From the NCBI GenBank assembly GCA_946554525.1, contig CAMNSE010000001.1, forward strand, positions 85,942-149,941: 64,000 nt of DNA. The letters run 5' to 3'. The notes under the pieces are model-generated. The model was given only the letters and a program-made list of their open reading frames with translations, did not search any database and had not been told where the DNA came from. Shown one piece after another: positions 3-2,111 of the stretch; position 1 is the first letter of the stretch; each line of letters starts with the position of its first letter. The stretch comes from an uncultured Mycoplasma sp. Lineage in GTDB: Bacteria > Bacillota_I > Bacilli_A > RF39 > UBA660. The position numbers were made by a program, and so were the translations under genes.

Positions 3-953
3 CCAACAAAAACTAAAGATGAAAGAGTCGCAGAATTAACAAAATTAATAGATAATTATTTATGGCAAATGAAACAAATCTCTCATGCTAAAACTTATCC
101 AGAAAAAGTTATCATAAAAGAGAAAAAAACGCGCAATAAGCATATTCGCAAATTATTGCTCAGAATACCAGCATTATTACTTACATCATCTATAACTTTA
201 GGACTAGTCGCTGGAGCAGGTTTTTTGGCAAAAAAAGTAACTACCACAAAAAAATATAAAGGAACCAAAACAACATATTCAGAGGAGACAGGAAATACTA
301 TAAATGAAACTTTATATGTAGACTATGGTGAAGTAAAAATTATAGAGATATCTCCATATCAAAGAGCATTAGACGGAAGTTATTTTAGAGAAAAAACTTA
401 TTATGATGCCAGTAGTTATGGCGATATGCCAATTAGTTTCTTCTTAAATCTAGATGTATCAAATCTTTCTAAAGGATACACAATAAAGGAAACAAAAGAT
501 AATTTAAGTTCCGAAGAACTATATAATGAAACTCTTAGATCTATTGAAAAAACAGTAATAGACTTAAATAATAGCAAAGAACAAACAGATTGGGTTTTCT
601 TTATCCCCTTATTAGGCTTATTGGAAGTTTCAGCTGTATGCTTCTGGATACTGATTGGTTGTATTTACGGTCAATTTACTGACAAATACATGGTACTTGA
701 TCAGGCAAAAGAAATCTTAAATATAATAAACGATTTAAAACATAGTGAAAAAACAGTAAAGGAAGCAGAAAAAGAATTAAAACGCTTAATAGAACTTGCA
801 AATCAGCTTTTTATTGAAAATAAAGATAGTGTGGAAGAATTATTAAAATTAATCCCTCTTATCGAAAATGATCCAAACTATCAAAAAGAAGTGATAGATG
901 CCAAAGTTGTTTTGCAAAGAGTAAAGCAAGATGAAAAAGGAATTACAAGATAA
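3..953 (+). CDS. Membrane protein of unknown function, 5' end outside the window
   Basis: The reading frame is open from base 3 to the TAA at 951-953, so the true start lies upstream of the window; an internal ATG at 69 has no Shine-Dalgarno site. The visible 317 codons contain a basic stretch, a hydrophobic helix around visible residues 50-75 (near LLRIPALLLTSSITLGLVAG), a roughly 110-residue polar extracytoplasmic-type region, a second helix (FFIPLLGLLEVSAVCFWILI) and a charged helical C-terminal tail of about 90 residues likely to form a coiled coil. No family was recognised. A two-helix hairpin with a long loop is what the sequence shows; any role in the envelope is inference. Confidence 0.7.
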   Translation, partial: PTKTKDERVAELTKLIDNYLWQMKQISHAKTYPEKVIIKEKKTRNKHIRKLLLRIPALLLTSSITLGLVAGAGFLAKKVTTTKKYKGTKTTYSEETGNTINETLYVDYGEVKIIEISPYQRALDGSYFREKTYYDASSYGDMPISFFLNLDVSNLSKGYTIKETKDNLSSEELYNETLRSIEKTVIDLNNSKEQTDWVFFIPLLGLLEVSAVCFWILIGCIYGQFTDKYMVLDQAKEILNIINDLKHSEKTVKEAEKELKRLIELANQLFIENKDSVEELLKLIPLIENDPNYQKEVIDAKVVLQRVKQDEKGITR

Positions 954-1012
954 TTTCTTTTTTTAATTAATGTCTGTATTCACAAAAAATGTGATATTTG
1001 AAAAATTTATAC

Positions 1013-1041
1013 TTGACAAGATTTTAGTTTTGTAATAAAAT
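1013..1041 (+). promoter_or_regulatory. Promoter of the small structured RNA
   Basis: TTGACA at 1013-1018 and TAAAAT at 1036-1041 are separated by exactly 17 bases. No coding start follows; the predicted transcription start at about 1048-1050 coincides with the base of a long hairpin. This is one of the best -35/-10 pairs in the window. Confidence 0.7.
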
Positions 1042-1047
1042 ACATTC

Positions 1048-1185
1048 TCGAACATTTAGTTTGGTTTGAATATTCTTTTCCATTCTTTGATATACTTCCT
1101 TTACTTAACTAATATCAAATTCTATTAATTCAAACAAATATAAATGTTTTTTAAATTGAAAATTGCCCATTAAGGGCTTTTTTTA
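1048..1185 (+). ncRNA. Candidate small structured RNA (about 135 nt), no known family recognised
   Basis: Between a consensus promoter and an intrinsic terminator there is no credible ORF, but three nested perfect 8-bp stems: 1051-1058 with 1141-1148, 1064-1071 with 1128-1135, and 1086-1093 with 1112-1119. They form a rod with an asymmetric central bubble (1072-1085 facing 1120-1127) and an 18-nt apical loop. The hairpin starts at the predicted +1. A rod with a central bubble recalls 6S RNA, but 6S RNAs are usually 160-200 nt. The SRP RNA tetraloop region is not seen. Nested stems could also come from a small mobile inverted repeat, but the flanking promoter and terminator argue for a transcribed unit. 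Confidence 0.5.
1165..1184 (+). terminator. Intrinsic terminator of the small RNA
   Basis: GCCC (1165-1168) and GGGC (1174-1177) enclose a 5-base loop and run into a T tract to 1184. It also precedes the 3' end of the convergent gene at 1191 and has a short T run on the other strand, so it may act in both directions. Confidence 0.65.
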
Positions 1186-1190
1186 TGTCT

Positions 1191-2111
1191 TTATTTAGAA
1201 ATATTACTTTTTAGTTGATAAATAAGAGGAATAATATTTTCTTCTCTAATAAAATTCATAATGAAATTATCTTGCTCTTTCGTAATTATTATTCCTATTG
1301 TTTTATTATGGTATTCTTTTTTAACTACTTTATCTGCTACCCTCATATAAAACTCTATTTGTCCCTTATCTTCTTTTTTTAATTTTCTAAGTTTTAACTC
1401 CACGACTATAAATTGATTTGATTCATAATTAAAAAGGAGGATGTCAATAAAGTAATTTTTGTTTTCGTATATAATCTTATATTCATTTCCTACTAAAGCA
1501 AATCCATTTCCAAGTTGTTCAAAAAAACTTTTTAATTTTGATAGTATTAATAGTTGTAAATCTTTCTCACTTTTTACTTCTTCATTTTTACTTACTTCTA
1601 ATATGATTGGATTTTTCATTTTATCTAGTGAAGTAATATTTCTTAGTTCTATTATTTCTACATGTTCTGGCTTATTTAATAATCTTTCATATGAACTTGA
1701 TTTAATTTCTTTCATTAGGGCCCGCTTAGATAAACTTTTTTCTATACATAAATTAATATAGTAGTTTCTTTTATTAGTATCTTTTATTGGTAATAAAATT
1801 AAAATATTAGTCCAAGATACTTGCGCCACTGGCGCAAGTATTGGAAATGATAAATAAAATTGTCTAAATCTGCTTAAATTAGTATATGTATAACCTTTAC
1901 CATAATTCTCAGTGTATTTTTTACTCCACTCTTTTATAAGTCCATTTCCATATTTGGCACGCTTAGCTCCTCCTTGCGCTTCTACAATTAATCTTCCAAT
2001 ATTCCAATTTGTCTCTAACTGTTCATAATTATCTGATATTACTCTTGCTCTTTTACTTACTTCATATTTCTTTATATAGTGTTCTATCTCATTGTAGTAT
2101 TCTTCTTTCAT
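1191..2111 (-). CDS. DUF1016 (YhcG-type) PD-(D/E)XK nuclease-domain protein
   Basis: The 306-residue protein matches the DUF1016 architecture: an N-terminal helical domain (residues about 10-130, with the typical NWNIGRLIVEAQGG and VSWTNILILL segments) and a C-terminal YhcG nuclease fold. The nuclease core is visible as FIDILLF followed by FIVVELKL, the D...ExK catalytic pattern, at about residues 220-240. Family members are often found near restriction or toxin-antitoxin genes, but their substrate is generally unknown and no methylase or toxin lies nearby here. It is a single gene, convergent with the small RNA. The start at 2111 has AAGGAG 9 bases upstream. A GC-rich perfect palindrome lies inside the gene and an inverted repeat covers its start region (separate entries). 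Confidence 0.85.
   Translation of the reverse strand: MKEEYYNEIEHYIKKYEVSKRARVISDNYEQLETNWNIGRLIVEAQGGAKRAKYGNGLIKEWSKKYTENYGKGYTYTNLSRFRQFYLSFPILAPVAQVSWTNILILLPIKDTNKRNYYINLCIEKSLSKRALMKEIKSSSYERLLNKPEHVEIIELRNITSLDKMKNPIILEVSKNEEVKSEKDLQLLILSKLKSFFEQLGNGFALVGNEYKIIYENKNYFIDILLFNYESNQFIVVELKLRKLKKEDKGQIEFYMRVADKVVKKEYHNKTIGIIITKEQDNFIMNFIREENIIPLIYQLKSNISK
1817..1841. repeat. Perfect 25-bp GC-rich palindrome inside the DUF1016 gene
   Basis: Two 11-base arms (ATACTTGCGCC and its complement) are separated by 3 bases. The core TTGCGCC is far richer in G+C than its surroundings. It encodes the LAPVAQV stretch just before the conserved VSW of the DUF1016 helical domain, and would form a strong hairpin in the mRNA. 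Confidence 0.75.

Follow-up and report, generated by a model that had tools for sequence, protein, structure and literature searches.

Classical small RNAs (sRNAs) are conserved mainly in their seed, and 6S RNA binds sigma-A RNA polymerase and templates a product RNA. The LhrC family of Listeria (LhrC1-5, Rli22 and Rli33-1) comprises G-poor RNAs of 111-114 nt whose CU-rich loops pair with ribosome-binding sites, with Hfq not needed for target binding (PMC4132741, PMC8079631). LhrA, also of Listeria, is genus-restricted and has a conserved single-stranded pairing region that acts 5' of the start codon (PMC8079631). The locus described here lies at 1013-1185 of the window, the 64,000-nucleotide stretch of DNA that was analyzed, and is a real sRNA gene, ordinary in kind, new as a family and unusual in the rigidity of the whole molecule. 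A literature search returned nothing under the genus name and nothing relevant on small RNAs of RF39.

Window positions 1005-1190 were used as the BLAST query against 36 genomes of the genus, relatives being labelled Candidatus Caccenecus (Bacilli). The element is present in single copy in 32 of the 36 genomes, with best E-values of ∼3e-55 to 2e-23 (own copy apart); in G003 and G020 the copy is located at contig ends. No paralogues were found in the genome of the window (G000). The element was not found by BLAST in G014, G019 (53% complete), G023 and G035. In G014, G023 and G035 neither the sRNA nor its neighbour rodA was found, only distant SEDS paralogues, so that these absences could reflect loss of the locus or a gap in the assembly.

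In an alignment of 30 copies almost every position is invariant from CGAAC (+2) through AAATGTTT, whereas the terminator stem and the flanks vary freely; the flanks have ∼30-35% mean pairwise identity and are unalignable. The core (∼98 nt) has a mean pairwise identity of 95% (29 genomes), compared with ∼82% for tmRNA in the same genus (24 genomes) and a median of 85% for 6S RNA, the 6S mean being lowered by one wrongly cut sequence (G031). By these alignments the sRNA is more strongly conserved between species than the housekeeping RNAs 6S and tmRNA.

The sequence of 1013-1185 was read directly and matched the description given in an earlier, sequence-only reading, which had claimed a TTGACA-17-TAAAAT promoter, a hairpin terminator about 135 nt downstream and the absence of an ORF. 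All three were recovered (Table 1), with no ORF of at least 60 aa inside 1013-1185. The promoter hexamers agree with the consensus at 11 of 12 bases. Taken alone, promoter-like matches are about as frequent in the AT-rich window as chance predicts (26 found against 28.5 expected), and it is the fold and the conservation that make the case for an sRNA gene. All 32 readable genus copies retain TTGACA, and 28 of the 32 have the 17-nt spacing together with a start 7 nt past the -10; the sequence of the spacer varies freely in the alignment of relatives. The start was placed at ∼1048 from the promoter and the 5' edge of the conserved block.

The terminator hairpin is short here (4 GC pairs) and was for this reason missed by a simple terminator scan. 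A hairpin and T-run are found at the same place in every complete relative (n = 30), with stem sequences that differ (GCCC/GGGC, GTCC/GGAC, CAAC/GTTG, CGCT/AGCG and others). From start to T-run the gene measures 135 nt in the window, compared with 130-148 nt in relatives. At the level of sequence, the locus has its own promoter, a noncoding body and an intrinsic terminator, conserved as a unit. A conserved promoter and core followed by terminators of varying sequence would be difficult to account for by anything other than a transcription unit.

Table 1. Features of the predicted sRNA gene and its neighbours (window coordinates)
Feature	Position	Strand	Basis
Putative membrane protein, frame open upstream of the window (482 aa); separates rodA from the sRNA	69-953	+	ORF
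Sigma-A type promoter: -35 TTGACA 1013-1018, 17-nt spacer, -10 TAAAAT 1036-1041	1013-1041	+	Hexamer match and genus conservation
Small noncoding RNA gene, predicted transcript ∼135 nt	1048-1185	+	Fold, genus conservation, promoter/terminator anatomy
Stem 1 (closing), 5' strand; pairs with 1141-1149 (9 bp)	1050-1058	+	Fold; invariant but for one gap
Stem 2, 5' strand; pairs with 1128-1135 (8 bp)	1064-1071	+	Fold; U-A/U-G exchange keeps pairing
Bubble, 5' side, 14 nt, G-free, CU-rich (AUUCUUUUCCAUUC), nearly invariant	1072-1085	+	Alignment
Stem 3, 5' strand; pairs with 1112-1119 (8 bp)	1086-1093	+	Fold; invariant
Apical loop ACUUCCUUUACUUAACUA, 18 nt, G-free, CU-rich, nearly invariant, resembles 16S 3' tail ACCUCCUUU; proposed Shine-Dalgarno pairing site	1094-1111	+	Function inferred
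Stem 3, 3' strand	1112-1119	+	Fold, alignment
Bubble, 3' side, 8 nt, G-free	1120-1127	+	Fold
Stem 2, 3' strand	1128-1135	+	Fold, alignment
Internal loop separating stems 1 and 2, 3' part; main site of length variation in relatives	1136-1140	+	Alignment
Stem 1 (closing), 3' strand	1141-1149	+	Fold, alignment
Intrinsic terminator GCCC-ATTAA-GGGC-TTTTTTT	1165-1184	+	Fold; hairpins kept in relatives
DUF1016_N/YhcG_C PDDEXK-nuclease gene, convergent with the sRNA	1191-2111	-	Pfam domains

The minimum free energy (MFE) calculated for 1048-1185 is -26.4 kcal/mol, against -13.7 ± 2.8 kcal/mol for shuffles (z = -4.59), and none of 200 dinucleotide shuffles folded as well. In the MFE structure, nested stems of 9, 8 and 8 bp build a rod that contains an asymmetric bubble. 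The three 8-bp stems and the asymmetric central bubble previously proposed are all present in this fold, the first stem (proposed as 1051-1058/1141-1148) being extended to 9 bp. The same rod is predicted for all 30 complete genus copies, and all 40 unpaired nucleotides of the bubble and apical loop are free of G.

The sequence-only reading had been made to depend on conservation of the stems in relatives, and these are near-invariant in the aligned genus copies. It had also proposed a search for compensatory changes: the 27 pairs examined were 100% paired, with none changed on both sides and 2 changed on one side. The stems hardly vary, and the sequences are too conserved to reveal covariation inside the core. 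Pairing fell to 34-52% when the partner strand was slid by 1-3 columns; this demonstrates specific helices and is no proof of evolution as helices. On inspection of the alignment, the indels in L007, L019, L024, L027 and L028 were located outside the helices, in loops, bubble or helix borders, as was the 0-4-nt length variation near 1136-1140.

Rfam 15 was run on the window and gave only tmRNA and one tRNA at the gathering cut-off. The covariance models suggested by the sequence-only reading (6S, bacterial SRP) and the other Rfam families gave no meaningful match to 960-1230 at E ≤ 10. BLAST of 58 family genomes outside the genus gave only weak, short matches. A covariance model searched against 243 family genomes (148 genera) returned the genus matches and one weak match in G110, which was rejected as a false positive, antisense to the coding sequence for ...MREVYQRIDE.... 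Regions 3' of rodA in other genera contained no relative of the sRNA, and the sRNA was absent from the viral contigs, phages and plasmids searched. An exact 32-nt core pattern was scanned over 84,980 species genomes and retrieved 30 contig stretches from metagenome-assembled Bacilli. Many of these are visibly the same contigs as known genus genomes, one is named Candidatus Caccenecus avistercoris, and 0 of the 30 were shown to derive from outside the genus. The earlier suggestion of a new small RNA of this lineage is strongly supported by its presence across the genus, the lack of an Rfam family and the lack of relatives in the searches outside the genus; to date the family is known from a single gut-bacterial genus.

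The gene is found just 3' of a rodA/ftsW gene (Pfam PF01098), in the same direction, in most genus genomes, and the gene 3' of it changes between genomes. In G000 rodA is at C1:84036-85040. No Pfam family was found for the 294-aa part of the protein encoded at 69-953. For the nuclease gene at 1191-2111 a promoter close to consensus was noted, TTGACA-17-TATAGT (2169-2141, minus strand). A conserved ORF family of ∼98 aa is located head-to-head with rodA in ∼20 genomes (L005, L014 and others) and has no Pfam match.

A further conserved intergenic element without a long ORF was observed at L228:650-880, L229:720-930, L230:690-900 and L010:1120-1340; three of these loci were compared with Rfam, and none matched. 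G017 has at least two copies, one ∼200 nt 5' of the sRNA. A stretch of ∼35 nt on one strand is ∼83% complementary to the sRNA bubble strand. None was found in the examined parts of G000 or G002. It may represent a dispersed element, or else an RNA partner.

The reading that we tentatively prefer is that the sRNA is a trans-acting, Hfq-independent antisense RNA that pairs with Shine-Dalgarno sequences and blocks ribosome-binding sites, like LhrC of Listeria. The strong housekeeping-type promoter and intrinsic terminator would produce the predicted ∼135-nt rod RNA. Its apical loop ACUUCCUUUACUU, similar to the anti-Shine-Dalgarno tail of 16S rRNA, would pair with the ribosome-binding sites of target mRNAs, and the bubble strand (CUUUUCCAUUC) may possibly do so too. 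Such pairing would block translation of the targets without Hfq, as for LhrC. Hfq was not detected in the 36 genus genomes, in which controls were detected, and the pairing would thus have to be Hfq-free.

The apical loop matches the 16S tail of its own genome, GGATCACCTCCTTTCT (ACCUCCUUUCU), over 9 nt with one mismatch, which was equalled by 4% of composition-matched shuffles. Read on the complementary strand, 1072-1111 resembles a ribosome-binding site (AAAGGAAG...AUGGAAAAG), and several of the best matches at other places are opposite-strand gene starts. UUCC motifs are present in bubble and loop, and the predicted fold leaves G-poor, CU-rich single-stranded motifs accessible. No perfect complement longer than 16 nt, as expected of a long antisense partner, was found in G000 outside the gene itself. 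Contig G000:C6 is 98% N and was outside the target search.

In a first run against the gene starts of G000 (n = 911), pairing of the loop was better than that of 35 of 40 shuffles. A two-genome test was then based on 605 orthologous start regions taken from stretches of G000 and G002. The mean pairing energy of the loop beat 57 of 60 shuffles in G000 and 53 of 60 in G002, and its top-10 sum over both genomes beat 57 of 60. Perfect complementary 8-mers shared by the two genomes were not enriched (7 observed against 7.8 expected from shuffled loops). The target statistics for loop pairing are only suggestive. The bubble strand paired with gene starts no better than shuffles in G000 and beat about half of them in the two-genome test. 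Selection of start-codon regions by the bubble strand (complement AUGGAAAAG) was rejected, composition-matched shuffles being equally good.

The best shared candidate target is a 119-aa ORF directly 5' of rnc-smc (L306-L335), for which no Pfam family was found. Its ribosome-binding site keeps AGUAAAGG (AGTAAAGG), the complement of loop CCUUUACU, in 23 of 23 genus copies read; GTAAAGG is present in 8 of 980 start regions of G000 (<1%). The ORF is a lead and not a proof: two genomes in which the sRNA was not found, G014 and G035, retain the site as well, and the ORF was picked as the highest-ranking of many candidates. The site in smc itself is not conserved, and smc was therefore dropped from the candidate targets.

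Shine-Dalgarno pairing has a serious competitor in protein binding, which we consider possible at a lower level of confidence. The molecule would be a housekeeping or decoy RNA whose rod and invariant bubble and loop form a platform that titrates or scaffolds a protein, with every nucleotide constrained. The stems of the sRNA are invariant as well as its loops, unlike the seed-only pattern, which counts against a pairing sRNA. A protein platform is favoured by this invariance, by the identity of the core relative to tmRNA and 6S RNA, by the single copy per genome and by the strength of the housekeeping-type promoter. G-free, CU-rich loops resembling the anti-Shine-Dalgarno tail are, however, typical of pairing sRNAs, no known protein-binding RNA family was matched in Rfam, and the platform is without a candidate protein. 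The extreme conservation of the whole molecule points to a large number of targets at the same time, to a bound protein, or to both. That the sRNA is a global Hfq-free competitor at ribosome-binding sites, a rigid-rod mimic of the anti-Shine-Dalgarno tail, or else the core of a ribonucleoprotein, appears rather unlikely.

A DNA-level element, in which the inverted repeats act as folded DNA at a recombination, replication or mobile-element site, is very unlikely. Strong inverted repeats and near-perfect conservation beside changing neighbours would suit it, but the conserved block begins at the predicted transcription start and is followed by terminators of varying sequence in every complete copy, the element is single copy, and none was found in phages, plasmids or viral contigs.

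The 6S-like outline remarked on in the sequence-only reading proved superficial. Like 6S RNA (RF00013), the sRNA is a rod with a central asymmetric bubble and paired core 5' and 3' ends, with its own promoter and terminator, as a shortened or second 6S RNA binding RNA polymerase as an open-promoter mimic would be. Unlike 6S RNA it is about half the length (core ∼100 nt against the 187-position 6S model) and gives no 6S covariance-model match at E up to 10. The genome of the window has a genuine 6S RNA at G000:C2:23305-23487, which scores 47 bits and exceeds the Rfam cut-off, and 6S is above the cut-off in 18 of the 36 genus genomes. The lack of a match and the true 6S RNA elsewhere in the same genome lead us to reject this highly improbable reading. 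Least probable of all is a short translated gene or leader, since the 13-codon frame (TTG...TAA) that runs through the apical loop is broken by 1- and 2-base insertions in L007, L019 and L024 and has no Shine-Dalgarno sequence before it, and no longer ORF (≥60 aa) is present.

An RNA family absent from Rfam has thus been found in an uncultured, small-genome gut lineage without detectable Hfq. Constraint across species above that of two housekeeping RNAs implies that an important function originated inside a single genus. The nearly invariant strand of ∼60 nt offers a precise probe for metatranscriptomes. Should the loop indeed mimic the anti-Shine-Dalgarno tail, the sRNA would provide a simple model for control of translation that needs no RNA chaperone.

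Among the described systems, LhrA is likewise a genus-restricted sRNA with a conserved single-stranded pairing region, here a candidate one, but is Hfq-dependent and has four stem-loops, whereas this genus is without detected Hfq and its sRNA has another architecture. LhrC RNAs are multicopy, with two stem-loops and UCCC motifs; the present sRNA is single copy, forms one long rod with a bubble, has UUCC with no UCCC in its core and no Rfam family, and its pairing is a prediction. With LhrC it shares similar size, restriction to one genus, a G-poor composition and the combination of a CU-rich loop with a single-stranded stretch.
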